A stretch of DNA of 64,000 bases from Sphingomonadales bacterium (GTDB lineage: Bacteria > Pseudomonadota > Alphaproteobacteria > Sphingomonadales > Sphingomonadaceae), in the NCBI GenBank assembly GCA_017309275.1, contig JAFKLT010000031.1, positions 1 through 64,000 of the forward strand. The letters are read 5' to 3'. Within the stretch, counting starts at the first letter, position 1. Every line of letters starts with the position of its first letter. A program made the translations under genes and the position numbers. This document shows positions 45,822-64,000 of the stretch, in pieces. Below the pieces are notes generated by a model that saw only the letters and a list, made by a program, of their open reading frames with translations, did not search any database and was not told the origin of the DNA.

Positions 45822-46018
45822 CGGGGGGAGAGGCCTTTTTCTTTTCTGTCTTGGCTTTTTTCTTGCCACATCGGGGCTTAACACTCGCTGACGCCATGTT
45901 TCGTCCGGCGTTCAGTTATGTCGCAATTGTCGCAACAATGTGTCGTGACCACGCCTGTTCCACCAACGGTCGATATCGACCGCTGGACAGCATGGGCCTT
46001 CACCCTTATCGGCCAGCC

Positions 46019-48025: not shown

Positions 48026-50185
48026 TCAGAAGGCTACCCCAAGAGAAGCACGGATCACGCGCGGAGCGCCGACTTCGAGGGTCTGACGCGGGTAGAAGAA
48101 CTTCTTGTCGAACAGGTTTTCCGCCTTCACCCGAAGGTTGAGACGGGTTCCATTCAGCTCGAATTCGTAGCGAGCACCCAGATCGACGAGCGTGTACCCT
48201 TCAAGCTTTATCTGGTTGAACGCATCAAGGAACGAGCCCGAAGAATATTGAACTCCGCCATTCACATGCATCCCTTCAAAGAAAGGAATACTCTGCTCAA
48301 CGAACAGCTTGGCGTTGTAGCGGGGGATGGTTACGGGGCGATAGCCGCCATAGATCGGATCGTTCTTGATGACCGGGTCAAGATACTGGAAGCCCGCGAT
48401 CACCTTGGTGTTGCGGGTCGCTTGACCCGAGACAGCGAACTCGAGCCCACGATGCTGCTGCTTGCCGTAATAGGCCGACGTGCAGCCCGGAGCATCAACG
48501 ATCCCGCTCGCACCAATGCAGAAAGAATATTCCTGGGCGATCTGGAACAGCGCCCCCGTCAGCAGCAATCGACCGAACTCGGCTTTGACGCCCAGCTCAT
48601 ACTGGGTGGCCGTCTTGGGAGGAAGTATCTCGCGAGCGTTTGTCGCCTGAAGTGGCGCCTGGTCGCCGCGGTTCACCGCATCGGAATAGGTGAAATAGGT
48701 CGAGACATTCCGCGCTGGCTTATAGATGAGACCATAAGTGGGCGAGACGACGGACGTGCTGAAATTTCCCGTGGCGTTGGCATAGTTATCATATTTCAGC
48801 CAGATCGCACGTGCGGCGCCCAGCAGCTCGAAGCCATGTCCCAGCGACACGATGTCACTGATGAAGAGCGAATTCTGCCGCGTCACGGACGTCTTGGTGG
48901 AAGTATTAAAGCGCGGGCCAGTGTAGGGCGCAACGACATATTCACCTGTATAGATGTTGCCGCCGCCGCGGGTAACGGTGAAGTAGTTCGCGTTGATGTC
49001 ATTGTTCACGGTGTCATAATATTGGTCGTAGCGCTCGATCGCGCCACCGAACGAAATATCGTGAACAAACGGACCGGTCCGCAGCTTGCCTTTGACAAGC
49101 GCGGCTACCGAGCGCGTGTCGTCGTCGGTATTGAAGTAGCGATAACGGCTCTGATAGTCGCCCGTGATGCTGGTCAGTCGCGGGAAATCCGCCGCCTGTT
49201 CGAGCCGTGCGCGCGCGATAGATCCATTGATCTTCGCAACCCAATTCTCGCCGATATCCTGGATCAGCGTCACGCTTAGCGACTTGATCTCGCTGCCATA
49301 GCGGGAATCGCGCGGCGCCAGGCTGGTCGAACCATCGATAGGTTCGGGAGCGCCGAGCGCCGTGTTATAGCCGACCTGCAGCCCCTGGATCGCACCGTTA
49401 ATGATGCGACGGGAATAAAGACCGTCGACGCGCAAACGAGTGGTGTCGGTCAGCTTGAAGCCCAGATTCAACGCTGCGGCAAGGCGGCGATTGCGCGTCG
49501 AGGCGGTTTCCTGCTCGCCGCTTTCACCAAGGATGTTGAAACGCGCGCCCACCGTCTGGTCGGCATTGACGATCGACAGGTCGGCATGGCCAAAGAACAG
49601 GCTGGGACCGGTGTAGCCGACGGTAAAGTCCGCCGCCGGCTCGCTCAGCGGTTGTTTCGCGATGAAGTTGATCGTGCCGCCGGGCGAGGCAAAGCCCGAT
49701 ACTAGCGAAGAAGCCGACGAGATGATCTGAATATTGTCGAACAATTCGATCGGCACGTTGGTACGCAACGTACCGATGCCGCCCGCACCGGGCTGACCGT
49801 CCATCAGCGTGCGGGTGATGTCGAAACCGCGAACCTGGAAAAACGCGCCGCCGGCGGCGGCATCATTGGTGCGGGTCGATGCGCCACCCTGCAACGCAAC
49901 GATACCGTCCAGCGAGCGGACCTGAAGATTCTGAAGGGTTTCGGCTGTATAGACCTGAACGGCCATCGGCGTGTCGAGAATCGATTTGTTGCCAAGAACG
50001 TCGACGCCGGCCGAGATGGCACCCGGGGTGCTCCGCGTGGCGCTGACGATGATCTCATCAACATTGCTCCGCTCTTCGACATCGGATGAACTGCCCTGCG
50101 CTATCGCCGGCGTGACGACCAGCGCCGCCAGCACAGCAGCCGCACCGACGCTTGAGCGCAAGCCTCGAGGTGAAATCTTCTTCAT
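48026..50185 (-). CDS. TonB-dependent siderophore-type receptor
   Basis: A 719-aa outer-membrane receptor from ATG 50185 (AGGGG 8 bases upstream), signal peptide ending near AIAQG. The plug includes VDEIIVSATRSTPG, LDTPMAVQVYTAETLQNLQVRSLDGIV, FFQVRGFDITRTLMDGQPG and the VPIELFDNIQIISSASSLVSGFASPGGTINFIAKQP segment typical of ferrichrome/FhuE-type siderophore receptors. The barrel ends with a Phe (ASLGVAF). It lies downstream of the D-amino-acid operon in the same orientation but after an AT-rich gap. It could import a siderophore or a D-residue-containing peptide. Confidence 0.92.
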   Translation of the reverse strand: MKKISPRGLRSSVGAAAVLAALVVTPAIAQGSSSDVEERSNVDEIIVSATRSTPGAISAGVDVLGNKSILDTPMAVQVYTAETLQNLQVRSLDGIVALQGGASTRTNDAAAGGAFFQVRGFDITRTLMDGQPGAGGIGTLRTNVPIELFDNIQIISSASSLVSGFASPGGTINFIAKQPLSEPAADFTVGYTGPSLFFGHADLSIVNADQTVGARFNILGESGEQETASTRNRRLAAALNLGFKLTDTTRLRVDGLYSRRIINGAIQGLQVGYNTALGAPEPIDGSTSLAPRDSRYGSEIKSLSVTLIQDIGENWVAKINGSIARARLEQAADFPRLTSITGDYQSRYRYFNTDDDTRSVAALVKGKLRTGPFVHDISFGGAIERYDQYYDTVNNDINANYFTVTRGGGNIYTGEYVVAPYTGPRFNTSTKTSVTRQNSLFISDIVSLGHGFELLGAARAIWLKYDNYANATGNFSTSVVSPTYGLIYKPARNVSTYFTYSDAVNRGDQAPLQATNAREILPPKTATQYELGVKAEFGRLLLTGALFQIAQEYSFCIGASGIVDAPGCTSAYYGKQQHRGLEFAVSGQATRNTKVIAGFQYLDPVIKNDPIYGGYRPVTIPRYNAKLFVEQSIPFFEGMHVNGGVQYSSGSFLDAFNQIKLEGYTLVDLGARYEFELNGTRLNLRVKAENLFDKKFFYPRQTLEVGAPRVIRASLGVAF

Positions 50186-50378: not shown

Positions 50379-51884
50379 TCATTTTGATTTTGTTGCTTCA
50401 AGTACCAATCCATCTTCACGATAGATCAAACCCGATGGCTGACCGTCATAACCGTTGACGATCTCGATGCGGCGGCCGCTGGTTCGTTCGAACACGAAAT
50501 GGTTCGGGTCGAGAGGAATTAGGCGCATGGGTTCACTGTCGGCAGCGCTGACCAGCGAAAGGCCCTTATCATCCGCACTGATCCGGAACCGCAGCGGCTG
50601 GTTGGTTGTCCGCAGGCGCTGGGACAGAATTGTATCGGCCGACGACACGACATAATCGCCGGCAATGCGCTGCAGCTCGCCCGCGCCAAACCGCACTGGT
50701 GGCGCTTCGAGATAATCGCCTGTCGTCCAATTTTCCGCCTTCGCTATGGCGCGCGCAACCTCATATCGAAACTTGCTGCCGCCCGGACTGTTCGTGAACA
50801 GGACGAGTCCGTCGCCGGTCGCCAGATTCATCTCCATCCAAGCGCGATAGGAATCGTTCGATCCGCTGTGATAGAATTGACGGCGCGTCCCTTCGCCTCT
50901 CAGAAACGGTCCCGCCCCCGTGCGGCTTCCTGCCACTTCGGTCAGCATAGCGCGCGCATGAAGCGGATCGATCAGCGCGCCAGGTTTGCCCCGGGCGGCG
51001 TCATACAGCGCGATCATCAGCCGAGCGTAATCGCTCGGCGTCGTCCACAGCCCGGAAGCCGCGATTTCCGGCATCGCTTCCCAGCCGCGCGGCAACGCCC
51101 TCTCCGCACCCTTGGCATCATGCGCCTTCGCAACCCTGCCAGCGAAGGCCTCCGGCAGGGGGTTGACGTAAGTGCTTGCCGTCATGCCCAGCGGCCGGAA
51201 CAACAGGTCGCTGGCCAGCTGCTCAAAGGGAACGCCGGTCAGGTCTTCCATGACGAGCCTGGCAACCTCGGTCCCGCCACCCGAATAACTCGAACCGCTG
51301 CCCGGCGTATAGAATGCCCTAACTGGATCGTTCTTCGCAGGGCCTGCTCCGTCCAGCGTCTGCAGCAGCGTCGGCAGCGTTTCACCCGGCGCATAATCGT
51401 CAAAACCGTTCACCGTCAGACCGGCGGTGTGGGACAACAGCCCGCGCATCGTGATCGGGCGCACGCTGGTGTAGGGGCTGCGCGGAACCGTCCAGCGCTT
51501 CAGATACATATTGACGTCGGCGTCGATATCCAGCCTGCCCGCCGATCCGAGTTCCATCGCCATCATCGCGGCCCCGATCTTGCTGAGCGAGCCGACGGAA
51601 AACAGCGTATCGGCGTCCACCGGCTCGTTCCGGCCCGCACGCCGCGTTCCATATCCCTTTGCCCAGGCGATCCGTCCGCCGCGAATGACCACGATACTGA
51701 CGCCTGGAATATTCCAGAACGCCATCCGCTCCTCGACCGTCCAGCGCTGCTGCGCCGAACCAACCTCCTGCACCGTCGGACCAAATCCGGTCTCGAACCG
51801 TGCGATGGCGGGATCCTGCGTCCGCGCGTGAACTGGCGCAGCGCACAGCAGGCTAGCGATCACCGCATATCTGAGCATCCCCAT
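50379..51884 (-). CDS. S12-type serine hydrolase (beta-lactamase fold), exported, copy 1
   Basis: A 501-aa protein from ATG 51884 with GGGAG upstream and a signal peptide (cleavage near HARTQ). The catalytic S-x-x-K is Ser99-Leu-Ser-Lys102, the second motif is Tyr200-Ser-Gly (the family usually has Tyr-x-Asn), and HSGSN in the later half stands for the third motif. A C-terminal beta-rich domain (about 390-501) follows, as in S12 D-aminopeptidase-like enzymes. It is the last gene of the dgcA operon, 3 bp after the esterase-like gene. Release of D-residues from peptides is inferred. Confidence 0.85.
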   Translation of the reverse strand: MGMLRYAVIASLLCAAPVHARTQDPAIARFETGFGPTVQEVGSAQQRWTVEERMAFWNIPGVSIVVIRGGRIAWAKGYGTRRAGRNEPVDADTLFSVGSLSKIGAAMMAMELGSAGRLDIDADVNMYLKRWTVPRSPYTSVRPITMRGLLSHTAGLTVNGFDDYAPGETLPTLLQTLDGAGPAKNDPVRAFYTPGSGSSYSGGGTEVARLVMEDLTGVPFEQLASDLLFRPLGMTASTYVNPLPEAFAGRVAKAHDAKGAERALPRGWEAMPEIAASGLWTTPSDYARLMIALYDAARGKPGALIDPLHARAMLTEVAGSRTGAGPFLRGEGTRRQFYHSGSNDSYRAWMEMNLATGDGLVLFTNSPGGSKFRYEVARAIAKAENWTTGDYLEAPPVRFGAGELQRIAGDYVVSSADTILSQRLRTTNQPLRFRISADDKGLSLVSAADSEPMRLIPLDPNHFVFERTSGRRIEIVNGYDGQPSGLIYREDGLVLEATKSK

Positions 51885-51887
51885 GGT

Positions 51888-53222
51888 TCAGACTCCCGGC
51901 TCGCAAGGAAATGCTTCGGGCTGGACCGGCTGTGCGGCGAGCGGCACCTGCGGCGTGAGCGAGCGGACGAAGATCAGTCCGTCAAACGCCGAGGACGGTA
52001 TCAGCGTATCCATCTGGCTTTTCGTGTTGAGGTTGCGGAACTGCGCTGGGGTGGTCAGCCAACGGCTGGCCGCAGCTGAAGCCCCATCGTCCTTCAGCGA
52101 CAGGAAATAGCGGTCGGGGCCGACCCCGGCGAGCAAAGCGTTCGCGGTTCCCTTGGCCGTTGGCGAGATGCGATAGGCCGCGTTCGCAGGGTGGAATATC
52201 CCCAATATGTCACGAGCCTCGCCACCCTCGAACACTGTCGCCACCGACTGGAAGCGGTCGCCCAGATAATCATGCACCAACTCGCCGAAGCTGCTGTGCA
52301 GCATAAACGGGTCGGCGGGCTGCTGTCGCCATTTGGTGACGTGCATATTATGTGCGAACACGAACACCCGGCCTTCCGGGCCCTCGCGTTCCAGCACCCA
52401 GCGCAGCGTCTCGGCAGCGGCAATATCGCGCCCCTGGTTGATCATGCGAAGGTTGGCGGCAAACTGGCGCGCGGCCACCGCCAAGCGATAATTCTCGAAA
52501 TAGTCCTTGCTTGACGTCGCGGCGATCCAGGGCTTCTGGTTGCGTTCGAACAGCGACACAAGATCCTGCGCCGCTACCGTCATCTCTCGGCGTTCGCCTT
52601 CGGACAGCGTAGCATAGGCCATGCGATTGAACGACGGGCCTATGGCCGCCAGCCGGTCTCGCAGCTCAACCATATGATCGGGGGCGACGCGGGTGAGATA
52701 GGCCGATGTGGCGGCCAGCAACGGCGCGCCGTCGGGCCGCATGCAACCCACCATCTCCAGCCCATAGAAATGGACCTTCCGTTTGGTCGTCGGGCGCGCA
52801 TTATATGAACGCATCCATTCCAGAAGCGCCAGATTTTCCGCATAGGCGCCCGGCGTCCAGGAAAATACGCCCTTGGCCGCTGTCGCCGGATCGACGTCAC
52901 CGCCCAGAACATAATCATTGGCCGCGATCGATCCGCCGTAGCCCGTCTCTGCGGCGATCGCGGTATAGCCCTTCTTCTCGACAAGATAGGCGAACAGGCG
53001 ATTGCGCAGCGTCCAGAATTCGCGGGCGTCATGCCCCTCCTCGCCAAAGGCAAAGACCTGCGCGCGCTCCGCCAGCTTGCCGATCGGGGCCAGGTCATTG
53101 TCGTTCGGGCCGATGTCGACGCTCGCGACAGGCGTCGCTCGATCGCGAACCCATGCGCGAACGGCGGCATCGTCGGCCGACACACTGGACAGGGACAGGA
53201 TGAGGGCGGTCAGGGCTGGCAT
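51888..53222 (-). CDS. Erythromycin-esterase-family protein, copy 1
   Basis: A 444-aa protein from ATG 53222 (AGGAGA upstream) with a short signal peptide. The fold is that of the Ere family: AFGEEGHDAREFWTLRNRLFAYLVEKKGYTAIAAETGYG, then VFVFAHNMHVTK with a conserved His and the C-terminal VGPDRYFLSLK. The first active-site His is kept (GEEGH), but the second His found in copy 2 (HNSHE) is Arg here (HDARE). The paralogue at 56988-58334 shares most blocks. Being exported and in a D-amino-acid operon, it is unlikely to be a macrolide-resistance esterase. Confidence 0.85.
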   Translation of the reverse strand: MPALTALILSLSSVSADDAAVRAWVRDRATPVASVDIGPNDNDLAPIGKLAERAQVFAFGEEGHDAREFWTLRNRLFAYLVEKKGYTAIAAETGYGGSIAANDYVLGGDVDPATAAKGVFSWTPGAYAENLALLEWMRSYNARPTTKRKVHFYGLEMVGCMRPDGAPLLAATSAYLTRVAPDHMVELRDRLAAIGPSFNRMAYATLSEGERREMTVAAQDLVSLFERNQKPWIAATSSKDYFENYRLAVAARQFAANLRMINQGRDIAAAETLRWVLEREGPEGRVFVFAHNMHVTKWRQQPADPFMLHSSFGELVHDYLGDRFQSVATVFEGGEARDILGIFHPANAAYRISPTAKGTANALLAGVGPDRYFLSLKDDGASAAASRWLTTPAQFRNLNTKSQMDTLIPSSAFDGLIFVRSLTPQVPLAAQPVQPEAFPCEPGV

Positions 53223-53231
53223 GCTCTTCTC

Positions 53232-54662
53232 CTAGGCGGATATTGCAAGAGTGGCGGCAGAGGTTTCGGGCCAACGGTCGCTCCAGGGTGCCGCTGCCTC
53301 CAGTTCCAGAGCAAGCGCCAGCAGCAGATTGTCCTGTCCGCGCGCCGCGGTGAACATGGACCCTACCGGCATCCCGTCCAGCGCCGCGGTGACAGGCAGC
53401 GAGATCGACGGATTGCCGGTCACATTCTGGACCGGCGTATAGGGGATGACATCCATCATATCATCGAGCAGAGCGCGCCAGGGCCGCATCCCGGAAAAGC
53501 GCTCGATGGCAACCCCATGTTCCGCCATGACCGGCGACAGGATCACGTCGAACGTCCCGAACAGCGCCTCATACGCCGGCGGAATGTCGCCGAACAGGCG
53601 ATAGGAACGCTCGAGATCGAGACCGCCCAACGTATCGGCCCATTCGGACAGACCGATCGGCCAGTCCTCCAGCATCGCGCCGAGCGGCCGGTCCGGAAAG
53701 CGGTTGCGGCAGAAATCCGCCACATCGGCGCCGAGATAGGCCCAGAGCGTCTTGAACGCCGCGATGAAATTGTCGCCGTCGAACGGCAGGGCGACGGGTT
53801 CGACCCGATGCCCAAGCCCCTCGCACAGGGCAGCGGTGCGCTCGATTGCCTCGGATACGGCCGGGTGCGGTTGCGCGCGACCCGGCGCTTCCAGCATCAG
53901 GCCAATCCGCAACCGCCCGTCCGGGCCACGATCGACGGGCGACACATTCCCGTCGGCGTGCACGGCGGCAAAGACCCACGCAACGTCGCGAACCGATCGC
54001 GCCAGCACCCCGTCGCTGCACAATATATCGTCGAACAGGTGCCGTGCCCGCGCGCGTACATTAGCACCGCGGCTCGCCTTCAGCCCAACAAGGCCGCAAC
54101 AGGACGCCGGTATGCGGATCGACCCCGCCGCATCGCTAGCATGCGCCACGGGGACCATGCCCGACGCAACCGCCGATCCCGCGCCGCCGCTCGACCCGCC
54201 GGTGGTATGCCCTGCATTCCACGGATTGCGCGTGACACCATACCGCCGGCTCTCGTTGGACGGCAGCAATCCGAATTCGGACATCGTCGTCTTGCCGAGC
54301 GGGATCAGCCCCTGCTCCTCCAGCCGCGCGACAAAGGGAAACATCGCCGATGCTGGGCTGTCGTCGAGCGCCGCCGACGCCGAACGCGACGGCATGCCCG
54401 GATAGGACACCGAATCCTTCAGCAGATAGGGTACACCGGCCAGCCCGCCGGTACCGCCGACAGCGGCGCGCGACCGGGCCGCCGCAAAGTCCGTATGGCT
54501 GACGGCGTTCAGCACCGGGTCGAGCGCCTCGATCCGCGTTATCGCGGCCTCGACCAGCTCTCCCGCCGAGACCTCGCCGCGCCGGACGAGCGCCGCCTGG
54601 TCATGCGCATCGAGCAGGCCAAGCGCGGCAGCGTCACCGGTGCGGATCGACGTCTCGCTCAT
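53232..54662 (-). CDS. Amidase (amidase signature family)
   Basis: A 476-aa cytosolic amidase. The catalytic triad is complete: Lys82 in GVPYLLKDS, the cis-Ser at residue 157/158 in TTGGSSGGAGSAVASG, and the nucleophile Ser181 in SDAAGSIRIPA. PVQNVTGNPSISLP and GSMFTAARGQDNLLLALALELE are C-terminal features. No signal peptide. Its ATG overlaps the dgcN stop, so it is coupled to dgcN; it may hydrolyse an N-acyl or amide form of a D-amino acid. It lies 9 bp before the esterase-like gene. Confidence 0.9.
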   Translation of the reverse strand: MSETSIRTGDAAALGLLDAHDQAALVRRGEVSAGELVEAAITRIEALDPVLNAVSHTDFAAARSRAAVGGTGGLAGVPYLLKDSVSYPGMPSRSASAALDDSPASAMFPFVARLEEQGLIPLGKTTMSEFGLLPSNESRRYGVTRNPWNAGHTTGGSSGGAGSAVASGMVPVAHASDAAGSIRIPASCCGLVGLKASRGANVRARARHLFDDILCSDGVLARSVRDVAWVFAAVHADGNVSPVDRGPDGRLRIGLMLEAPGRAQPHPAVSEAIERTAALCEGLGHRVEPVALPFDGDNFIAAFKTLWAYLGADVADFCRNRFPDRPLGAMLEDWPIGLSEWADTLGGLDLERSYRLFGDIPPAYEALFGTFDVILSPVMAEHGVAIERFSGMRPWRALLDDMMDVIPYTPVQNVTGNPSISLPVTAALDGMPVGSMFTAARGQDNLLLALALELEAAAPWSDRWPETSAATLAISA

Positions 54663-55672
54663 CCCTGCGCGCCGCCATGCTGCATGGCGAGGGCATCGAC
54701 GATCGCGCCGACGCCGGTCCGGAACGGATCGACACAGGGCAGTTGCAACGCTTCCGCCGTCCGTGCCAGCAGATCCGCCGCATCTTCCTCCGAAAGCTTC
54801 GAGGTGTTTAGGCTGACGCCCACGACCTTCGCCCCCTTGTTGGTCAACGCCGCCGCCGCTTCATAGGCCTGCACGCAGGCCTCCAGCGTCGGCTGCGGAT
54901 AATATTCGAACTCGCCGATCGTCGTGCGCGTCGGATCGGCGCACAGCACCATCGCGTCGGGCTGGCTGCCATGAACAAGGCCCAGCGTCACGCCGGCATA
55001 GGCGGGGTGGAACAGCGACCCCTGCCCCTCGATCAGGTCCCAGTGATCCGCATCATTTGCGGGCGACAACGTCGCCGCCGCCGCCGACACGAAATCGGAG
55101 ATCACGGCATCAACGGAAATGCCTTGGCCAGCAATGAAGATACCGGTCTGGCCGGTGGCACGGAAATCGGCCGCCCAGCCCCGCTCGCGCATTTCGCGTT
55201 CCAGCGACAACGCGGTGTACATCTTGCCTACCGCGCAATCGGCGCCGACGGTCAGCAGGCGCTTGCCCGACCGAAAGGCGAAGTCGCCGATCGGAAAATC
55301 TTCGGTCGGATGGCGCACGTCGTGCAGCTTGCGGCCGAGCTGGTCGGCCTTGGCCTTCAGCGACGGAATGTCGTTCAGTTTGGTGTGCAGTCCGCTGGCG
55401 ATGTCCATGCCTAGGTCGAGCGCGCGCTCGATCCACTCCATCCACGCTGGCGGCAGCAGGCCTCCGGCCGGTGCGGCCCCCACGAGCAGCGAACGGGCAC
55501 CCGCCGCCACCGCTTCTTCCAGGTCCATTTCCGGCAGACGCATGTCGAGCGCCGACCCGGGGAAACGCAGCTGTCCCACGCACAGGTCCGGCCGCCAGTC
55601 GCGCACGCCCTGCGCCGTTTTGGCATGCGGGGCGTCGCCGAGGAACAACAGATAAGGTGTAGGAACTTGCAT
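54659..55672 (-). CDS. dgcN: DgcN, D-glutamate N-acetyltransferase family (DUF1611)
   Basis: A 337-aa DUF1611 protein from ATG 55672, with GGAGG just upstream. The N-terminal domain (1-130) precedes a P-loop-like segment with GADCAVGK at residues 143-150. GQTGIFIAGQGI and the DHWDLIEGQGSLFHPAYAGVTLGL block are typical of the family. DgcN proteins acetylate D-glutamate and are encoded beside DgcA, the N-acetyl-D-glutamate racemase; both features are present here. It is cytosolic, 24 bp after dgcA, and coupled to the amidase. Confidence 0.85.
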   Translation of the reverse strand: MQVPTPYLLFLGDAPHAKTAQGVRDWRPDLCVGQLRFPGSALDMRLPEMDLEEAVAAGARSLLVGAAPAGGLLPPAWMEWIERALDLGMDIASGLHTKLNDIPSLKAKADQLGRKLHDVRHPTEDFPIGDFAFRSGKRLLTVGADCAVGKMYTALSLEREMRERGWAADFRATGQTGIFIAGQGISVDAVISDFVSAAAATLSPANDADHWDLIEGQGSLFHPAYAGVTLGLVHGSQPDAMVLCADPTRTTIGEFEYYPQPTLEACVQAYEAAAALTNKGAKVVGVSLNTSKLSEEDAADLLARTAEALQLPCVDPFRTGVGAIVDALAMQHGGAQG

Positions 55673-55696
55673 TTCGCCTCCCGAATTATGAATGGA

Positions 55697-56680
55697 TCAG
55701 CCCCAGAGCATCGACTGAGGCGGAGAAACTTTGCCGTCCGCATAGGTCAGCGACGGCGCGCGATCGCTGCCGATCAGCAGCGGAGCATCGAGGTCCACAA
55801 AACGACAGGTCTGTGCGATCACCGTGGCCGGCGCCATCGCGAGCGAGGTGCCGAGCATGCAGCCGACCATCACGTCCAGCCCACGCGCCCGAGCGCCGCT
55901 CGCCAGCGCCAGCGCCTCTGTCAGGCCGCCGGTCTTGTCGAGCTTGATATTGATTACATCGTACAGCGCGGCGAGCCGGTCCAGATCGCGGCTGGTGTGA
56001 CAGGATTCGTCCGCTCCGACAGGGATCAGATGCGCCAACTCAGCGATCGGATTATCCTCGCCCGCGCGCAGTGGCTGCTCGACCATCTCGATCCCGAGCT
56101 CGGCCAGCAGCGGCATATATTCGCGCAACTCGTCAAAGCTCCAGCCTTCATTGACGTCGACGATAAGGCGCTTTTCCGGCACCGAGGCGCGCACAGCGCG
56201 CAGCCGGTCGCCGTCGCCCACCGCCCCCAGCTTCAGTTTCAATATAGGGTGAGCGGTGGCCGCCCGCGCCGCCGCCGCCATGACATCGGGAGCATCCAGA
56301 CTGACCGTCATCACGGTTTCGATCGCCTGCAGCGGCGGCATTCCCAAAAGCTCCGCGATCGACTTGCCCGCCCGCTTGGCCCGCAGGTCCCAAAAGGCGC
56401 AATCGACGGCGTTGCGCGCGGCACCCGCCGGCGCGGCGGCGATGAGCGCCGCGGGATCGGAAGTCTCGGCAAGGTCCGCCAGCAGCCCCCTGATATCGCG
56501 CACCACCTGTTCCAGGCTTTCGCCGAAATGCGGAACCGGACAAGATTCGCCGCGCCCCCTCACCTCGCCATCGCCCAGTTCGACCAGAACGACCGTCACA
56601 TCATGGATCACACCGCGCGAAATGATGAAAGGCTTGGCGAGCGGCCACTGCTCTTGCGCGACGGTTGCGAACGATATCAC
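55697..56680 (-). CDS. dgcA: DgcA, N-acetyl-D-glutamate racemase (enolase superfamily)
   Basis: A 327-aa enolase-superfamily enzyme of the dipeptide-epimerase branch. The acid-base pair is Lys148-x-Lys150 (LKLKLG) and Lys246 (INIKLDKTGG); metal ligands are Asp175 (VDVNEGW), Glu201 (VEQPL) and Asp224 (GADES). Such proteins are annotated as L-Ala-D/L-Glu epimerases, but next to DgcN they racemise N-acetyl-D-glutamate. The start is GTG 56680; the only nearby ATG is out of frame. It heads the five-gene operon. Confidence 0.85.
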   Translation of the reverse strand: MISFATVAQEQWPLAKPFIISRGVIHDVTVVLVELGDGEVRGRGESCPVPHFGESLEQVVRDIRGLLADLAETSDPAALIAAAPAGAARNAVDCAFWDLRAKRAGKSIAELLGMPPLQAIETVMTVSLDAPDVMAAAARAATAHPILKLKLGAVGDGDRLRAVRASVPEKRLIVDVNEGWSFDELREYMPLLAELGIEMVEQPLRAGEDNPIAELAHLIPVGADESCHTSRDLDRLAALYDVINIKLDKTGGLTEALALASGARARGLDVMVGCMLGTSLAMAPATVIAQTCRFVDLDAPLLIGSDRAPSLTYADGKVSPPQSMLWG

Positions 56681-56987
56681 AAAAATCTCATTTCCTGATG
56701 AATGTTATATTTCTATCACTCATCGAGGCGCCGATGTAAAGTCACTTTTGCGCCATCGTCGGAGGGTTTATTTCGCGGACGGCAAAACCCACGTATTCGC
56801 GCCCGTATGGAGCCGGCAGCCTGTGCGATGCACTTACGCGGGAGATCGGCCCGAGCGCACGCCGGTCACCTCTCCACCGGCCTCGACCGGTGGCTTCTCT
56901 GCCCCCTCCACAACGCGCAACGGCGGATGCCAGAGTGTCGCAATCGCCTATGTCATGTAGCGATTCTGGGCAGGGCCCGGCCGAAAT
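56681..56987. other. 307-bp intergenic region upstream of dgcA
   Basis: No gene is seen. It lies between the dgcA start and the second esterase-like stop, both on the minus strand. The first ~50 bases upstream of dgcA are AT-rich and probably hold its promoter. CCACCGG-CCTCGA-CCGGTGG at about 56876-56895 forms a 7-bp hairpin that could help end transcription of the esterase-like gene. No repressor gene lies here. Confidence 0.5.
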
Positions 56988-58334
56988 TCAAACACGCGGC
57001 GTACCGGGTTCACAGCGGAACGGGTCAGGTCCGGCATCCTGATCGGCGGCGAGCCGTTGCGGCGAAAGCATCCGCACGAAGTACAGCGCATCGAAGGCAG
57101 CGATCGCGTTCATATCGTCGCCCCCCTCAAGAGAGTTGATATTACGGACGTGGCGCGGAACCGAAAGCCAATCGCGCACCGCGTCCGGCATGGCCTTTCG
57201 ATGCAGGTTGATAAGGAACTGGTCGCCTTTCAACGATGCGACGACGGCATTCAGGCTGCCCGACTTGGAGGCCGGAACGGCGTAGGTCGCGTTCAGCGCA
57301 TGGAAGGAACCCAGAATGTCGCGGGCCGATCCGCTATCATAGAGCGAACCTATCGTGACATATTGGTCACCCAGATAGCTTTTCGTGAATTCGCCAAGGC
57401 TGCTCCGAATCGGCGTCCCCGCACTTGAAACCTCGCGCGATTTGGCGACATGCCCATTGTGGGCGAATATAAATACACGCCCGTCTCTTCCCTCGCGATC
57501 AAGCACCCAGCGCAAGGTCTCGGCGGCGGCGATATCCCGTCCCCGATTGCCCATCCGGAAATGGGCGGCGAGTTGACGAACGGCGACGGCAAGCCGGTAC
57601 GCCCGAAAATAGTCGTCTGAGGATGTTTTATCTATCCAGACGACCTGCCAGCGCTCGAAGAGCGATACCAGGTCCTGCGCGGCGACGCTAAGGTCGCGTC
57701 GCTGCGTTTCGGGCAGGCTGCCATAGCCTTCGCGACTGAACGATGTCAGGAGTGGCGCAAAACGTGCCCGAAGCTCGGCGCCCTGCGCCGAATCCATCCG
57801 GTTGACGTAGGACAGCGCCGCATCGACGATCGGCTGCCCGTCAGCCCGCATGCAACCGGCCATCTCCAGCCCGTAAAAGCGCACCTTACGCTTCGTCGTG
57901 GGTCGGCCGTTGTACGCGCGCATCCATTGCACCAGCTCGAGATTTTCGTCGAAGGTCGATCTGGACCAGGAGAAGACGCCCCTTGCTGCCAAGGCGGGAG
58001 AAACATCCTCGCCCATGACATAGCGGTCGGTGGCAATCGACGGACCATATCCCGTTTCGGCCGCGATGGCCGTGAAACCGCGATGTTCGACGAGATAGGC
58101 GAACAACCTGTTCCGAAACGACCAAAGCTCGTGGGAATTGTGCGTACCTTCGCCAAAGGCGACCACGCGAGCCCCGGTCACGACATTATCGAGTGGCGCA
58201 AGCTCCGCAGCGGAGCCGCCGATCACAAGGGGGCTTATCGGCTCCGCGTTCGCCTGCATCCAGTGGGCCGCGCCATCGTCTCCGGACAGACTCCCCATAG
58301 CCGCAAGCAACGCAAAATAGGTCAACCGGATCAC
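56988..58334 (-). CDS. Erythromycin-esterase-family protein, copy 2
   Basis: A 448-aa protein. I chose GTG 58334, with GGAAGG 12 bases away, because it gives a signal peptide (VIRLTYFALLAAMGSLSG) aligned with that of copy 1; the frame is open to a TTG at 58424. Blocks VVAFGEGTHNSHELWSFRNRLFAYLVEHRGF, FYGLEMAGCMRADGQ and VFIFAHNGHVAKS are shared with copy 1. Both active-site His of the GEGTHNSHE motif are present, unlike copy 1. It is divergent from the S12 hydrolase at 58575, sharing a 240-bp control region. Confidence 0.85.
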   Translation of the reverse strand: MIRLTYFALLAAMGSLSGDDGAAHWMQANAEPISPLVIGGSAAELAPLDNVVTGARVVAFGEGTHNSHELWSFRNRLFAYLVEHRGFTAIAAETGYGPSIATDRYVMGEDVSPALAARGVFSWSRSTFDENLELVQWMRAYNGRPTTKRKVRFYGLEMAGCMRADGQPIVDAALSYVNRMDSAQGAELRARFAPLLTSFSREGYGSLPETQRRDLSVAAQDLVSLFERWQVVWIDKTSSDDYFRAYRLAVAVRQLAAHFRMGNRGRDIAAAETLRWVLDREGRDGRVFIFAHNGHVAKSREVSSAGTPIRSSLGEFTKSYLGDQYVTIGSLYDSGSARDILGSFHALNATYAVPASKSGSLNAVVASLKGDQFLINLHRKAMPDAVRDWLSVPRHVRNINSLEGGDDMNAIAAFDALYFVRMLSPQRLAADQDAGPDPFRCEPGTPRV

Positions 58335-58574
58335 AGATCGCCACCTTCCCGATGGAAAAATATCCGTGAAGGTGTCACGAACCGTGCGGCCACGCAATTT
58401 CACCAACCCGCGCGGAAAGCTCAATATAGCATTTAGCGCAGCCTAACTTGTCGCTGTCGACACAATCGTCAAACCCATGACAGGGCCACTGATCATGCGG
58501 GAACCGGAATGAGTCAGGATCGCAATCGGAGCGAGGGAGCGGTTTCGTCGACGTTCGGCCAGCGGAGGAAAACA

Positions 58575-60290
58575 ATGAGCGGATGGCGCACGACGCAATG
58601 GTGGACTTTGTCGCCGGTCCTCCTTGCCATGATGGCGCATCCGACAGATGCGCGTCAGCCCGACTCTCCAGCCCGCCAGGCGGAGCGCTATTTCGCCTCG
58701 CTGGACAAGCCTGATGCGCCAGGCTGTGTACTCGGAGCAAATCAGAATGGTCATGGGATATTCCGCGGCGCATTCGGGCTCGCCGATACCGCCACCGGCC
58801 GTCGCAACATGCCGGACGAGATTCTCGGCGTCGGCTCGGTCACAAAGCAATTCGCCGCGACTGCGGTGGCGATGGCGGCCCGCGAGGGGCATTTTTCGCT
58901 CGATGATCCGATCAGCCGATATCTGCCGGAGATGGCGAACGCACCCGCGATCACGATCGAACAGTTGGTGCATCACACCAGCGGCTTGCGCGATATAGGG
59001 CGGCTGATCGAACTGACCGGACGACCTGGCGACTATCACGACCTTGACAGCCGCGTCGCCCTCCTCGGTCGTCAGCGCGCCACCAACTTCACGCCGGGCC
59101 AAGAATTTCGATATAATAATTCGGGCTATATTCTGCTCGCAGCGTTGATCGAACGAACGACGGGGGAAGCGTTCGCAACCTATGTCCGGAACCATATTTT
59201 CCAGCCGCTCGGAATGCGGTCGAGTTATTTTGGTGAGAATTCCCGCGGCGATCGCGATCGGGCGCTGCCCTACCGGCTCGCAGATGGGCGCTGGGTGCGC
59301 ACCGATGGGCCGTTCGCCACCCAAGGAGGCTGGGGGGCAACGGGCCTGATGACAAGCCTGGACGATTTCGGACACTGGGCAGACAATCTTGTTTCCGGCC
59401 ATAGTGCGCTTGCGGGTGGACAGACGCTGATCGCGAAATTGAAGGAGCCAGGGAAGCTCACCGACGGCGAGAGCATTCCATACGGATTTGGCTTGCGGCT
59501 GGTGCCTTATCGCGGGTTGCCGATGATCGGCCATGGCGGCTCGGCGGACGGGTATAAAGCAGCGACGATGATCTTTCCGGACCGCAAACTTGCGGTGTTC
59601 GGTTTCTGCAACAACGGAGAATATGCCGACACCATCGTCGAGCGACTGGCCGACATCTTTCTCGAACTGCCTGGCGATGCAAAGGACGACGCCCCATCGC
59701 CATCCGCGCGACCAATGGGGGTTGCCATGTCCCTGTCCGAATTGCAGCAATTCGAAGGCGTTTATCGCGAGCCAAGTTTGCGGCTCCCGCTGACCGTCAC
59801 GGCCGAGGCCGAAGGCCTGCGGGTGACCGGTGCCAACCAGCCGGCACTCTTCGTTCCGATCGGCCCGACACGGTTTCGCGGCAAGACCGACGACATCATG
59901 GCGTTTGAACAGGGGAACTCCAGCAGCGAGATGGTCCTCGTCCAGGAAAAAGGCGTCCAGTTCCACTTCGGAACAGCCCGCTTCGAGCGGATCCATCCGG
60001 TCCAGCCGACACCCGAAGAATTACAGGCCTATACCGGGCGCTACACCAGCACCGAACTCGGCGCGAGCTACGATTTCTTTGTCGAAGGCGGCGCTTTACG
60101 GGCCCGCATCGTCAACAGCGAACAGCCGCGAACCTTCGTCTTCCGTCCGATGATCGCCGATGAGTTTGTGGCCATTCCGGACCGACTCGTGCTGCGCTTC
60201 GAACGCGTTGGCGACCGTCCGGCGGGGTTTGTATTAACGCATCAGTTCGGCTGGATCACCGACGTCCGCTTCGAACGGGATCCACGCTGA
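58575..60290 (+). CDS. S12-type serine hydrolase, exported, copy 2
   Basis: A 571-aa protein from ATG 58575 (GGAGGAAA seven bases upstream), signal peptide ending near TDARQ. The triad motifs are textbook: Ser88-Val-Thr-Lys91, Tyr180-Asn-Asn182 and His320-Gly-Gly. A C-terminal ~200-residue beta domain follows. This layout matches S12 D-aminopeptidases and D-Ala-D-Ala carboxypeptidase-like enzymes, which cut next to D-residues. It is the only plus-strand gene in the last 16 kb and converges on the S33 gene (47-bp gap). Confidence 0.88.
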   Translation: MSGWRTTQWWTLSPVLLAMMAHPTDARQPDSPARQAERYFASLDKPDAPGCVLGANQNGHGIFRGAFGLADTATGRRNMPDEILGVGSVTKQFAATAVAMAAREGHFSLDDPISRYLPEMANAPAITIEQLVHHTSGLRDIGRLIELTGRPGDYHDLDSRVALLGRQRATNFTPGQEFRYNNSGYILLAALIERTTGEAFATYVRNHIFQPLGMRSSYFGENSRGDRDRALPYRLADGRWVRTDGPFATQGGWGATGLMTSLDDFGHWADNLVSGHSALAGGQTLIAKLKEPGKLTDGESIPYGFGLRLVPYRGLPMIGHGGSADGYKAATMIFPDRKLAVFGFCNNGEYADTIVERLADIFLELPGDAKDDAPSPSARPMGVAMSLSELQQFEGVYREPSLRLPLTVTAEAEGLRVTGANQPALFVPIGPTRFRGKTDDIMAFEQGNSSSEMVLVQEKGVQFHFGTARFERIHPVQPTPEELQAYTGRYTSTELGASYDFFVEGGALRARIVNSEQPRTFVFRPMIADEFVAIPDRLVLRFERVGDRPAGFVLTHQFGWITDVRFERDPR

Positions 60291-60337
60291 GTAAAAAGGG
60301 CCTGCCGACATTGTCGACGTCCCCGGCAAAGCTGGCG

Positions 60338-61840
60338 CTATTTCGCGATTCGAACGACCTGCCCCGCCTCGATATTGTCGGCGGCAAAGAATCGGGCAAC
60401 CTCGCGCACCTGCAAATTCACCTGCGGTTGTGCAGGATCGTAGATATTGTGCGACTTGCCCACGAAGACCAGCATCTGCGCCCGCGGATAGAAGCGGCGA
60501 ACGGCCATTGCGCCATCAAGCGGCGTCTGCACGTCGCGCTCGCCGTTGTAGATCAGCGTATCGCCGGTGAAGACGTGCCAATCCGAATCCTGAATGGGTT
60601 TCCGCACATAGGGCCGGAGAATGCCTTCGCAAGGAAAGGACATTGTGAAGTCCTCGAACCGATCGAAGACATCTTTGGCAGGCCTTGCCGCAACTGGGGT
60701 CAGAGGACGGAAGGCACATTGTTGCATAATGCCGGAAAGCTTGCCCTCGATCAGCGATCGATGCTGGCCCAGGCGCCACATAGTGGCTCGGGGCGCAACC
60801 CAGCTGAAATCGCCCTTTGCCATCTGGGCGATTGCACCCGTAAGTTCGGACCACCGGCTTACAGGTAGTTCGGTAGTCGCCCATCCGAGTTGATGCAGCA
60901 CGTCATAGGAGCCGAGCCTGACGGTGACGGGCGTTCCGTCCGGTGCCGTGGTATCGACGTCGACAGGCGCGGCATCCAGCTTGCGGAGGATGGCGTCGAG
61001 ATCGCTGCCGAGTTGAGGTGTGGGGGGTATACCTTCGACGGCGTCGCCGGCTTGCAGCATGCGAAACGCCTTGGCGACGGATTGCTCGCCGTCATCGACA
61101 CCCTGGACGCCGCCGATAGCGAGCCGCTCGACGGCCTGCGGATGGCGCTCCGCATAAAAGCGCGCGATACTGGATCCTGCACTGAAACCCCATATGTTGA
61201 TCTTGCTGTATCCGAGCGCCTTTCGCAGGTCGTCCACATCGTCAGCCGACTGGGCATAGTCATAGCCGCGAAGGTCGCGGCCCGAGGCGCGATAATAATC
61301 GACGCATCGCCGGATACCGTCGGTCATGCCCGAACGCACCTGCTCGATTTTGGTCCAAGGCTGGTCGAGCGGAAAGGCGAATGGTTCCGGGCAGTGCAAA
61401 CTGGGAATGCTCGCCGACGGGCTCCCGGAACCGCGCTGGTCGAACAGGATGACGTCCGCCACGGCCCGCAGCACCTCCAGATCCCTAAATTTCTGCGGCG
61501 TGATCCAGGTGTCGATATTGGCGTGACCCGGCCCGCCGATCACATAGACGATCGGCGCCTTCGGTCGAGACGCGGTGCTGGGAATGATCCAGAATCCGAT
61601 GCCGATGGTCGCACTCCTCGGATCCGCGCGGTTCTCCGGCACGAAAAGCATCCCGCGCTTCGCCGGCAGGCGGTTCATATAGGCGCTTCCCTCCTGACGG
61701 CCGACAAACGCGGAATCATAAAGGGTCAGGGTCTGCGGCTTCACGGAGGCCGGACGACGAGGCTTCCCCTGCGCGGCTCCAACCGCAGTCGTACAGAGCA
61801 TCGCCGCCAGCGCGGCGCCAAGCATGTAAGCATGTTTCAT
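60338..61840 (-). CDS. Exported S33-type alpha/beta-hydrolase peptidase
   Basis: A 500-aa protein. ATG 61840 is used, with AAGGA seven bases away. It has a signal peptide (cleavage near VGAAQ). VIGGPGHANID gives the GGPG oxyanion motif, ILFDQRGSGSP follows, INIWGFSAGSSIARFYAE carries the nucleophile in GFSAG, and the C-terminal part includes LIYNGERDVQTPLDGA (Asp) and GKSHNIYDP (His). This suits tripeptidyl- or prolyl-aminopeptidase-like enzymes of family S33. It lies downstream of the third S12 gene on the same strand. Confidence 0.88.
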   Translation of the reverse strand: MKHAYMLGAALAAMLCTTAVGAAQGKPRRPASVKPQTLTLYDSAFVGRQEGSAYMNRLPAKRGMLFVPENRADPRSATIGIGFWIIPSTASRPKAPIVYVIGGPGHANIDTWITPQKFRDLEVLRAVADVILFDQRGSGSPSASIPSLHCPEPFAFPLDQPWTKIEQVRSGMTDGIRRCVDYYRASGRDLRGYDYAQSADDVDDLRKALGYSKINIWGFSAGSSIARFYAERHPQAVERLAIGGVQGVDDGEQSVAKAFRMLQAGDAVEGIPPTPQLGSDLDAILRKLDAAPVDVDTTAPDGTPVTVRLGSYDVLHQLGWATTELPVSRWSELTGAIAQMAKGDFSWVAPRATMWRLGQHRSLIEGKLSGIMQQCAFRPLTPVAARPAKDVFDRFEDFTMSFPCEGILRPYVRKPIQDSDWHVFTGDTLIYNGERDVQTPLDGAMAVRRFYPRAQMLVFVGKSHNIYDPAQPQVNLQVREVARFFAADNIEAGQVVRIAK

Positions 61841-61912
61841 GGGATGGTCCTTCATTCTGAACGGCGGCGGGCGGAACAGCGTCTCAAATTACCGCGCGCG
61901 CGTCGCAAATCG

Positions 61913-63610
61913 CTACATCAGGCGTTGCAACAGCGAGCCGCAATTGCACATTTCGAACGGGCGGCCGTTGACGGCACTGCCGAACCAATATCGCTTGACG
62001 CCGCCCGGATCATCGACCGGCGACCAGAAGCCGCCCGGCCGCAGCACGATCTCCCCCGTCCCCTCCAGATGCAGCGCGTTGCCGCGCACAAAGACGGTCG
62101 ATCGGTCAATGCCAGACACATAGACCCCGGCGAAAGGCACCAAGGCCGGGTTCGCCGCGGGCGGCGGCACGGGAGCACCGCGCACCAAAAGCGTTTCGCC
62201 CCACCAGATCCGGTCCACAGGGCCGTCACCACCAGGCTCATACTGGAGGAGCTTCGCGCCAAAACCAGGGTGATCGGTCGCCAGCGACCCCTTATCCGCC
62301 TGCTCGATCCTGCCGCTCATCCCTTCAGCCCGAAGGGTCAGGCCTCCAGCAGTGCTGACGAGTTCCAGGCTGCGGCCATCGGACGCGGCATAGCGCCCGA
62401 CAAGCCGCTGCGGAGCTTTGACGACACGGAACGCGGAAGGATCGGGCGGGGCCGGAAGCGGCGCGCCGCTTTTCGCGGCCCGGAGCAATTGGATGGCATA
62501 AGCAGTCACCTTGCTGGGCCGATATCGGATGAGCCGCCCGTTGACGCTGGCGAAGCACGCCACTCCTGCTTCCGGGTCGACATGGAGGGAGGACGAAAAT
62601 GTCGCGACGCCGCCCGTATGATGCAGGACGGCACGGTCGTCGATCCTGACCATGCTCAACCCGCTCGCATAACGGCTGCCGGGGCCAGCCTCATCATTGT
62701 CCACATAGCGGGCGAGCAGCGTCCGCGCCGCCTCGTCCGACAGCAACGGCGCTCCCTTGCTTTGGCCAAGGTCCAGCAGGAAGCGAAGATAACCGGCCAT
62801 TGCTTTCGCGGAAGCGGAAACGGCACCCGCTGCGGCACTATACTCCCTGAACGGTCCGACACTCATCCGGGATCGGGTGACCAGCGGACGATCCGCCGCG
62901 AAGGGGACATAGCCGACCGCATAGCGGGCGCGGTCCTTCAGGAGAATCTGGGCCACGGCCCCATCCATCCCGAGCGGACGCAGCACAAGGTCCTCGATCA
63001 CCTCGGGATGTGGCCGCCCCGTCACCCGCGCGATTACCATTCCCAACAATACATAGCCGATATTGCTGTAGGAGTAGCGTTCGCCCGGCGGGAGACCAGT
63101 CCACAGCCGCGCCTCGGGATTACGCGGAAAAACCGGCGCATCATGCGCCAGTCCGCCGACATGATTGAGCAAGTCCCAAACGGTGATCGGCGCTTCGGGC
63201 AATGGCACGCCCGACACATAGCGGGAAACCGGCGCGCCGAGATCAACCAGGCCCTTTTCCGCTAGAATGTGCAGGCAAAGCGCCGTGATAGACTTGCTGA
63301 TCGAACCGATCTGAAACAATTGGCTGGAATCGACCGGCACCTGCGCCTCGACATCGGCCCAACCTATCCCGATCGTCTCGGTAAGACCATCGCGACCGAC
63401 GATGGTGATCGCCATGCCGGGAAAGCCGACGACAACGAGTTCCTTGCTAGCATAGCCGTGCAACGCGTCGATGGCCGGTCCGTAGATTTGCTTGACCGCA
63501 TGCGGCGTGGCGCCGCTCGAACTCGCTGTGGCCATCGTCCGCGCCGGGAGTGCGGCAACGGCAGCGGCCCCCACCGTCAGCCCCAACATATGCCGCCTGT
63601 TCGTATTCAT
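61913..63610 (-). CDS. S12-type serine hydrolase, probable Tat substrate, copy 3
   Basis: A 565-aa protein from ATG 63610 (GAGGAG eight bases upstream). The N-terminus NTNRRHMLGLTV contains a twin-arginine motif followed by a hydrophobic core, so export by Tat is likely. Catalytic motifs: Ser103-Ile-Ser-Lys106, Tyr181-Ser-Asn183, and HTGG near residue 328. The C-terminal ~190 residues form a separate beta-rich domain. It lies 72 bp upstream of the S33 gene and 32 bp downstream of the deacylase gene, probably in one operon. Confidence 0.88.
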   Translation of the reverse strand: MNTNRRHMLGLTVGAAAVAALPARTMATASSSGATPHAVKQIYGPAIDALHGYASKELVVVGFPGMAITIVGRDGLTETIGIGWADVEAQVPVDSSQLFQIGSISKSITALCLHILAEKGLVDLGAPVSRYVSGVPLPEAPITVWDLLNHVGGLAHDAPVFPRNPEARLWTGLPPGERYSYSNIGYVLLGMVIARVTGRPHPEVIEDLVLRPLGMDGAVAQILLKDRARYAVGYVPFAADRPLVTRSRMSVGPFREYSAAAGAVSASAKAMAGYLRFLLDLGQSKGAPLLSDEAARTLLARYVDNDEAGPGSRYASGLSMVRIDDRAVLHHTGGVATFSSSLHVDPEAGVACFASVNGRLIRYRPSKVTAYAIQLLRAAKSGAPLPAPPDPSAFRVVKAPQRLVGRYAASDGRSLELVSTAGGLTLRAEGMSGRIEQADKGSLATDHPGFGAKLLQYEPGGDGPVDRIWWGETLLVRGAPVPPPAANPALVPFAGVYVSGIDRSTVFVRGNALHLEGTGEIVLRPGGFWSPVDDPGGVKRYWFGSAVNGRPFEMCNCGSLLQRLM

Positions 63611-63642
63611 GGCGCATGCTCCTCATTGTTAGAAATCGGCTT

Positions 63643-64000
63643 CTACTGCCATCGCCGATCGGCTTTTTCCGCAGGTTCCCATGGCCATTCGCTGGCGGTG
63701 GCGCGACATCCTCCGCCGGGACGGCCCGTCCACGCCCGGCCGCGCACGAACCGTCCCGCCAGCGCGCCGGTTGGCTCGCCGCCGACCACGGTCGGCACCC
63801 CGTTGACCAGCACCGCCTCCACACCCTCGGCGAAACGAAACGGCTGCGCGTAGGTGGCGCGGTCGGCCATCCGCGCCGGATCGAACACGACGACATCCCC
63901 CGCAAAGCCTGACTTCAGCCATCCGCGACCGTCCAGCCGATAATGGGCGGCGGGAAGGCTCGTCATGCGCCGCACCGCCTCCTGCACTGTCAGCAGCTTT
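63643..64000 (-). CDS. N-acyl-D-amino-acid deacylase, C-terminal fragment cut by window edge
   Basis: The last ~118 residues of an amidohydrolase-superfamily D-aminoacylase; the gene begins beyond the right edge. TVQEAVRRMTSLPAAHYRLDGRGWLKSGFAGDVVVFDP is the family's final helix and beta-sandwich segment, and AEGVEAVLVNGVPTV...GRFVRGR the usual C-terminus. The metal-binding residues lie outside the window. The enzyme family removes acyl groups from N-acyl-D-amino acids. Its position upstream of the S12 and S33 genes supports a D-amino-acid theme. Confidence 0.82.
   Translation of the reverse strand, partial: KLLTVQEAVRRMTSLPAAHYRLDGRGWLKSGFAGDVVVFDPARMADRATYAQPFRFAEGVEAVLVNGVPTVVGGEPTGALAGRFVRGRAWTGRPGGGCRATASEWPWEPAEKADRRWQ

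Follow-up and report, generated by a model that had tools for sequence, protein, structure and literature searches.

A D-glutamate catabolic pathway built on DgcN and DgcA was reportedly described by Yu et al. in 2023, a study that PMC12363236 lists among its references, and polysaccharide utilisation loci unite a TonB receptor, exported hydrolases, a carrier, cytoplasmic catabolism and a regulator in one locus, of which many paralogous copies occur. The DgcN-DgcA pathway is described in the sections consulted of PMC10845958 and PMC11747546, and DgcN is connected with DgcA and D-glutamate in the available part of a paper on marine Shewanella. According to excerpts of PMC11747546, the Rhodobacteraceae strain LCG007 possesses two D-glutamate genes as well as extracellular D-Ala-D-Ala carboxypeptidases, grows on D-amino acids and on peptidoglycan, and is proposed to use D-residue peptides; this report is the nearest precedent for the locus described here, which was analysed from a window of 64,000 nucleotides (positions 1 to 64,000 of contig JAFKLT010000031.1) of a Sphingomonadales bacterium (GenBank assembly GCA_017309275.1). 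In LCG007, the same excerpts place the genes scattered over the genome together with an ABC peptide importer, whereas the present genome contains adjacent dgcN and dgcA genes of the known families that are joined, in one locus, to TonB receptors, exported S12 serine hydrolases, D-aminoacylases and carriers, and of which several paralogous copies exist per genome. By analogy, this layout would correspond to that of polysaccharide utilisation loci, with peptide and D-amino-acid enzymes in place of glycoside hydrolases. A further sphingomonad system directed against a D-glutamate peptide is the microcystin mlr cluster, whose MlrB is termed a serine peptidase in one place and a metallopeptidase in another in the part seen of PMC9505733; a search for MlrC_C gave no match in the present genome and the control search was equally silent, which excludes nothing, and MlrA and MlrD lay outside the search. 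Openly licensed PMC papers, as far as their accessible text goes, gave no account of such loci (an earlier description elsewhere is possible), and a sphingomonad TonB-receptor survey mentions neither peptidase nor D-glutamate.

We consider it likely that the locus, which appears to be an island of about 61 kb, enables the cell to import a D-residue-rich, N-acylated peptide and to use it as a carbon and nitrogen source. A preceding sequence-only reading of the window had placed a gene set for the catabolism of D-residue peptides within about 14 kb; the catabolic assignment gained support from the linkage of DgcN, DgcA, S12 and D-aminoacylase genes and from further D-amino-acid enzymes beyond the window, whereas the extent was set too short, since the locus continues past position 64000 to about 109 kb. 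It contains dgcN (D-glutamate N-acetyltransferase family; 54659..55672, minus strand; NF041892, PF07755, PF17396) and the adjacent dgcA on the same strand (N-acetyl-D-glutamate racemase family; 55697..56680), whose product exceeded the equivalog cut-off of NF042940 (433.2 versus 400 bits).

DgcN was present in 49 of 199 genomes of the family (86 matches, 83 with E <=1e-30; three short fragments were dropped). The 82 copies outside the window, taken with about 10 kb per side where the contig allowed, gave 81 loci (L156 holds two) and were compared by single-query phmmer searches (E 1e-10) with 45 control stretches of 20 kb, placed by hand at round coordinates in 24 of the same genomes; the loci are not independent, with several per genome, and some are clipped by contig ends (L120, 4.5 kb; L234, 3.6 kb). 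S12 and/or D-aminoacylase genes accompanied DgcN at 71/81 loci and occurred in 3/45 controls (S12: 50 versus 2, p 3e-11; D-aminoacylase: 47 versus 1, p 2e-11). DgcA was found at 64 loci, an APC-like carrier at 33 (p 2e-8), a dicarboxylate carrier of the DAACS type at 17 (p 3e-4) and a PvdQ-like acylase at 8 (p 0.03), each with 0/45 in the controls; TonB receptors were present at 43 loci versus 8 controls (p 8e-5). Restricted to the 19 control-giving genomes, the first 60 loci still gave S12 at 26/38 loci versus 1/40 controls. In the source genome itself, 7 of the approximately 26 S12 genes over cut-off in 5.1 Mb are no more than 10 kb away from any of the four DgcN copies that is nearest to them (binomial p ~2e-8), so that their grouping with DgcN is not due to chance. 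The test of co-occurrence across sphingomonads that the sequence-only reading had proposed thus showed a strong linkage of DgcN, DgcA, S12 and D-aminoacylase genes; the linkage did not extend to the amidase (4/81 versus 1/45), the esterase-fold hydrolase (1/81 versus 0/45) and the S33 peptidase (0/81), which are not part of the recurrent core. A relative of D-threo-3-hydroxyaspartate dehydratase (DTHADH; 2/81 versus 0/45) was, like the amidase and the esterase-fold gene, not significantly enriched, and the queries for S33, M20, DsdA, S58 and the FAD oxidoreductase gave no match at 81 loci or in 45 controls; these zeros are lower bounds, as single-query phmmer misses distant relatives. The beta-aspartyl-peptidase query joined the set only once a first scan had been made, and its count is disregarded.

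When the first 60 loci were clustered de novo against 40 controls, each cluster being named from one representative, the analysis revealed an HTH-cupin regulator (25 versus 0; representative L161:16768-17718) as a candidate D-glutamate regulator, furthermore LysR (11 versus 0), S9 (9 versus 2), a POT-type peptide carrier (7 versus 0), class A beta-lactamase-like and S13 proteins (each 5 versus 0) and two clusters without Pfam family match (L125:6663-7883 and L159:4951-5970; each 5/60 versus 0/40). In another set of 80 DgcN loci, only two of them sphingomonad and with flanks often cut, S12 was found at 8, D-aminoacylase at 11 and the carrier at 1; the link with S12 and carrier is therefore mainly a trait of this family. 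A different pairing of D-glutamate catabolism with a peptidase was seen in Pantoea and Erwinia, where an S58 (DmpA-like) peptidase gene lies near DgcN-DgcA (L081, L082, L085, L087, L088). DgcN copy number reached seven in one family genome (G085, L122-L128), and four full copies were counted in the source genome, G010, G140, G150 and G163.

In the tree of 74 DgcN proteins (quick method, SH-aLRT only; the long branches L147 and L121 are unsurely placed), 15 sphingomonad rows formed one clade (support 100), 12 of them with a D-aminoacylase no more than 7 kb away and 9 with a DAACS carrier. A second clade (support 95) united 33 rows, of which 27 had S12 and 25 the APC-like carrier; the DgcN of the window grouped with L009 and L139 (support 99) outside both clades. 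The fewest changes on this tree amounted to 11 for S12, 8 for the carrier and 15 for the D-aminoacylase, in consequence of which these links must have been gained or lost repeatedly. The order S12-DgcA-DgcN-carrier-S12 was seen at 19/81 loci, DgcN, DgcA and D-aminoacylase were consecutive at 35/81, and the DgcN copy on contig C39 of the source genome showed the order S12-DgcA-receptor-DgcN-carrier-S12. The APC-like carrier family, presumably YkvI-like, has no Pfam or NCBIfam match and is modelled with an APC/LeuT fold over the whole protein. Of the 33 loci with this carrier, 32 have its gene overlapping DgcN or at most 93 bases away, and one alone also has the alternative dicarboxylate carrier; the family is a candidate D-glutamate importer. 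We put forward, tentatively and as something short of probable, that sphingomonads might harbor widespread "D-peptide utilisation loci" of two to three designs with swappable carriers, including a previously unassigned, D-glutamate-importing APC-type family; among these loci, the one in the window would be an extra-large, horizontally acquired member dedicated to a siderophore or lipopeptide that is acylated and contains D-residues.

The window comprises the first 64,000 of the 200,943 bases of the contig (C2; genome of 5.1 Mb in 121 contigs), and the locus runs on past its end, from contig position 48026 to about 109061. Third-position GC averaged 0.739 in the block (36 genes, 48026 to 109.5 kb) versus 0.809 in the flanks (58 genes from both sides; Mann-Whitney p 1.7e-11), as calculated for genes of >=250 aa called by a custom GC-based rule and with block limits chosen post hoc. 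The block starts directly after the stop side of an open reading frame (45686..47605, plus strand; the start is mechanical and the true start may differ) that forms the left border and that we take, from its sequence, to be guaA (GMP synthase). The C-terminal 199 aa of guaA are present in 30/30 genus genomes with 94-100% identity, and the 60 bases past its stop are identical, as compared by eye, in one genome pair only. A tyrosine integrase directly follows guaA in 5/29 other genus genomes (L252, L257, L261, L271 and L272); L270 raises the total to 6/29, with an integrase arm domain that reaches the limit of the sequence stretch. Within the genus, the 3' end of guaA is a hotspot of integration. 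The guaA end had no 14-base copy within 160 kb that would form a direct repeat, no integrase was present among the island genes scanned (some lay outside the scan), and no integrase remnant was recognised by eye in six frames of 47606-48026. Distinct composition and a place beside an integration hotspot characterise genomic islands; the block shows both and is probably a horizontally acquired island, of which the window holds the left part. DgcN copies exist in 27/30 genus genomes, the best one outside the source genome being 55% identical to that of the window.

An integration hotspot, and the many members that do not recur together elsewhere, would also suit an assortment of unrelated catabolic genes gathered beside guaA without any joint function. 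We regard this as quite improbable in view of the even composition over 61 kb and of the recurrence of S12 and/or D-aminoacylase genes at the other DgcN loci. Moreover, other genera reassemble S12, DgcN, DgcA, D-aminoacylase, RpiR and TonB receptor, in one case together with the DTHADH relative and an amidase (G067, contig C12: LysR, S12, DTHADH-like, D-aminoacylase, DgcN, S12, RpiR, receptor, DgcA, amidase, receptor) and in one case with an esterase-fold gene (G174, contig C10: esterase-fold, S12, DgcN, D-aminoacylase, receptor, RpiR, DgcA); some of the receptor matches at these loci are weak (25-37 bits).

All genes named by the sequence-only reading (DgcA, DgcN, amidase, deacylase, three S12, S33-type peptidase, two esterase-fold proteins and TonB receptor) were recovered by Pfam and NCBIfam profile matches, on which the family assignments of the window are based. 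The siderophore-type TonB-dependent receptor (48026..50185, minus strand; PF00593, PF07715) exceeded the TIGR01783 cut-off (262.9 versus 223.5 bits). Of the S12 hydrolases (PF00144), the first has an export-type N-terminus (50379..51884, minus strand; 156 bits; SLSK at 99), the second is D-aminopeptidase-like (58509..60290, plus strand; 197 bits; nearest solved relative 2qmi, followed by the D-aminopeptidase 1ei5 and the alkaline D-peptidase 4y7p), and the third has, by eye, a Tat-like N-terminus (61913..63610, minus strand; 168 bits; SISK, YSN, HTG); the claimed intact S-x-x-K motif is indeed present in all three (SLSK, SVTK, SISK). As the second protein reached 126 bits against the cut-off of 443 of the D-aminopeptidase model PRK13128, and a fourth S12 hydrolase of the island 142.7, both can be termed D-aminopeptidase-like only. 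The two erythromycin-esterase-fold hydrolases (51888..53222, PF05139 159 bits; 56988..58424, 163 bits, nearest solved 2rad/3b55; both minus strand) contain G-E-x-x-H and A-H-N-x-H and are the only PF05139 matches of the whole genome; with EreB scores of 54 and 44 versus 750, they belong to the fold family only. The amidase-signature hydrolase (53232..54662, minus strand; PF01425 269 bits; GGSSGG motif) is without export-type N-terminus; a close relative (457 bits) shares a 13-kb stretch with DgcN and carrier in a Steroidobacter metagenome-assembled genome (L020). An alpha/beta hydrolase (TAP/S33-like; 60338..61855, minus strand; PF00561, PF08386) has an export-type N-terminus. Export signals, earlier attributed to six proteins, are predicted for seven on the basis of hydropathy and inspection by eye.

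The PF00144 hydrolases, together with the PF01804 acylase of the island and a protein at a related locus that exceeded a class A cut-off (224.6 versus 200), might suggest beta-lactam catabolism or resistance by S12, class A beta-lactamase-like and penicillin-acylase-type genes. However, the best class C matches of the window S12 proteins were 51, 65 and 78 bits versus cut-offs of 750-850 (general model 415), the acylase is nearest to PvdQ and not to penicillin G acylase, and no part in such a process is known for DgcN, DgcA or the D-aminoacylases, which makes this explanation highly improbable.

The D-aminoacylase-type amidohydrolase at the window end (PF07969; C-terminal end 63643..64000, minus strand; whole gene about 63643-65421) has the N-acyl-D-glutamate deacylase 3gip as nearest solved relative (227.5 versus 227.3 for 9g5m and 218 for a D-aminoacylase). 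For the second D-aminoacylase (contig 69094-70599, plus strand), 3gip was best (113.7 versus 71.6 for the next). This second enzyme exceeded the PRK09061 subfamily cut-off of 340 (588.1), whereas the first remained below (174.2). Both island enzymes are thus nearest to the D-aminoacylase and N-acyl-D-glutamate deacylase structures (3gip, 1m7j), from which they differ by export-type N-termini. In the part seen of PMC12017989, Arg295 of BbDam binds the gamma-carboxylate. An arginine near this column, which was placed by numbering only, was present in 19 of the 56 aligned enzymes (all >400 aa) and in neither island enzyme; a P-R-W motif near this position occurred in 14/18 enzymes at DAACS loci, 0/10 at carrier loci and 5/26 at other loci, and may mark N-acyl-D-glutamate specificity.

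Beyond the window, the DTHADH relative (contig 66598-67731, plus strand), a sodium:dicarboxylate symporter (SDF, here DAACS; 67862-69097, plus strand) and the second D-aminoacylase sit close together (66598-70599). They are followed by the APC-like carrier (70692-71810, minus strand) beside a DsdA-like D-serine ammonia-lyase gene (71826-73139, minus strand; 420 bits, over the cut-off of 246 of one model, and 339.7, under the cut-off of 368.25 of another), a LysR regulator, an FhuA/FoxA-like TonB receptor (74454-76718; TIGR01783 353.4 versus 223.5), a PvdQ-like acylase (76921-79257, plus strand; PF01804), so named for its nearest solved relative as it scored 607.8 versus 950 in the PvdQ equivalog, and a solute-binding protein. 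The fourth S12 hydrolase ends at 82268; after it come an RpiR regulator, an M20 peptidase, a PepSY_TM protein, a BhcD-like reductase (411 versus 500 bits), an alpha/beta hydrolase, a threonine-synthase-like enzyme and a LysR regulator. An MslH/PGA_cap-like protein (94428-95942), a second M20 peptidase and a second SDF carrier precede a third TonB receptor (99586-102705), for which TIGR01783 was not listed at E 1e-20. The right end is formed by an Asparaginase_2 family, beta-aspartyl-peptidase-like protein (102994-104022; 277 versus 567), an FAD oxidoreductase, an S58 peptidase, a LysR regulator and an aminotransferase that ends at 109061. A lasso-peptide route was considered and rejected: the MslH-like protein (PGA_cap, distant to the Trp epimerase MslH) reached 256 of the required 700, and the S9 cluster representative 83.7 versus 400 for lasso isopeptidase.

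As predicted from these families, the TonB receptors would bring the compound into the periplasm, where the exported S12 hydrolases, alpha/beta hydrolases and PvdQ-like acylase would strip off the acyl group and cleave at D-residues. Any N-acyl groups still left would be removed by the D-aminoacylases, and the APC-type and dicarboxylate carriers would move free D-amino acids into the cell. In this strain, DgcN would then acetylate D-glutamate and DgcA racemise N-acetyl-D-glutamate to N-acetyl-L-glutamate, while the DsdA relative would deaminate D-serine and the DTHADH relative hydroxy-D-aspartate or D-serine. The substrate is accordingly drawn with D-glutamate because of DgcN-DgcA, D-serine because of the DsdA relative, hydroxy-D-aspartate or D-serine because of the DTHADH relative, and an N-acyl chain because of the PvdQ-like acylase; a weak pointer to iron chelation comes from the PepSY_TM protein and from the two receptors of the siderophore type.

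The D-glutamate and D-alanine of cell wall stems might instead be the real substrate, with DgcN-DgcA as the core of peptidoglycan (muropeptide) scavenging. D-glutamate is an established stem residue (see also the part seen of PMC12363236), DgcA lies near L-Ala-D/L-Glu epimerases, the S13 and class A beta-lactamase-like clusters each recurred at 5/60 DgcN loci and in 0/40 controls, and strain LCG007 with its two D-glutamate genes grew on peptidoglycan according to the excerpts of PMC11747546. However, stems need neither D-serine/hydroxy-D-aspartate enzymes nor a PvdQ-like acylase or siderophore-type receptors, and no muropeptide amidase, LD-carboxypeptidase or AmpG-type match was found among the island genes scanned with Pfam (sets of 10, 10, 10 and 8), which do not comprise the whole island; such scavenging is an unlikely explanation.

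From general chemistry and nearest relatives, beta-hydroxyaspartate siderophores and D-glutamate lipopeptides seem a better match than the stems of the cell wall. A more specific version of the proposed peptide utilisation would be one specific acylated non-ribosomal peptide as food, either a beta-hydroxyaspartate lipopeptide siderophore or a cyclic lipopeptide of the Pseudomonas type that contains D-Glu, D-Thr and D-Ser, from which the acylase would take the fatty acid and in which the esterase would open the lactone before the rest is broken down. This is in line with the PvdQ-like acylase, the DTHADH-like and DsdA-like enzymes, the BhcD-like reductase, both receptors over the TIGR01783 cut-off (one FhuA/FoxA-like), the PepSY_TM protein and the beta-aspartyl-peptidase-like protein, all of which lie inside the composition-distinct block. 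It is nevertheless doubtful, as the make-up of the compounds (viscosin, pyoverdine, ornibactin) comes from general background and the specificities from nearest relatives, no carrier or enzyme is tied to one compound, and the accessible text of the openly licensed PMC literature offered no precedent.

Several observations weigh against the utilisation of an N-acylated D-residue peptide by the island as a whole. DgcN remained just under its cut-off (472.9 versus 480 bits) with the profile covered over 1-326/326, as did one other sphingomonad copy scanned likewise (451.5). Both S12 and D-aminoacylase are absent at 10/81 loci (L120, L122, L130, L152, L154, L165, L229, L234, L245, L246), and the esterase-fold, S33, M20, DsdA, S58 and FAD oxidoreductase genes may, with their recurrence at 1 or 0 of 81 loci, serve another substrate. 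The P-R-W motif is lacking in both island D-aminoacylases, so that N-acyl-D-glutamate need not be their substrate. In addition, the S12 and PF05139 families hold many non-peptidase enzymes.

The D-amino acids of wall remains and of non-ribosomal peptides are regarded as organic matter with a slow turnover. Many relatives of the source sphingomonad carry the island kit in smaller versions. If the proposed reading is true, a dedicated multi-copy D-amino-acid kit in common environmental bacteria would tell who recycles such matter, and how; it would give a function to the unnamed carrier family and to numerous exported S12 proteins of the "beta-lactamase-like" kind, and would aid in finding bacteria able to inactivate lipopeptides and siderophores or to feed on them.

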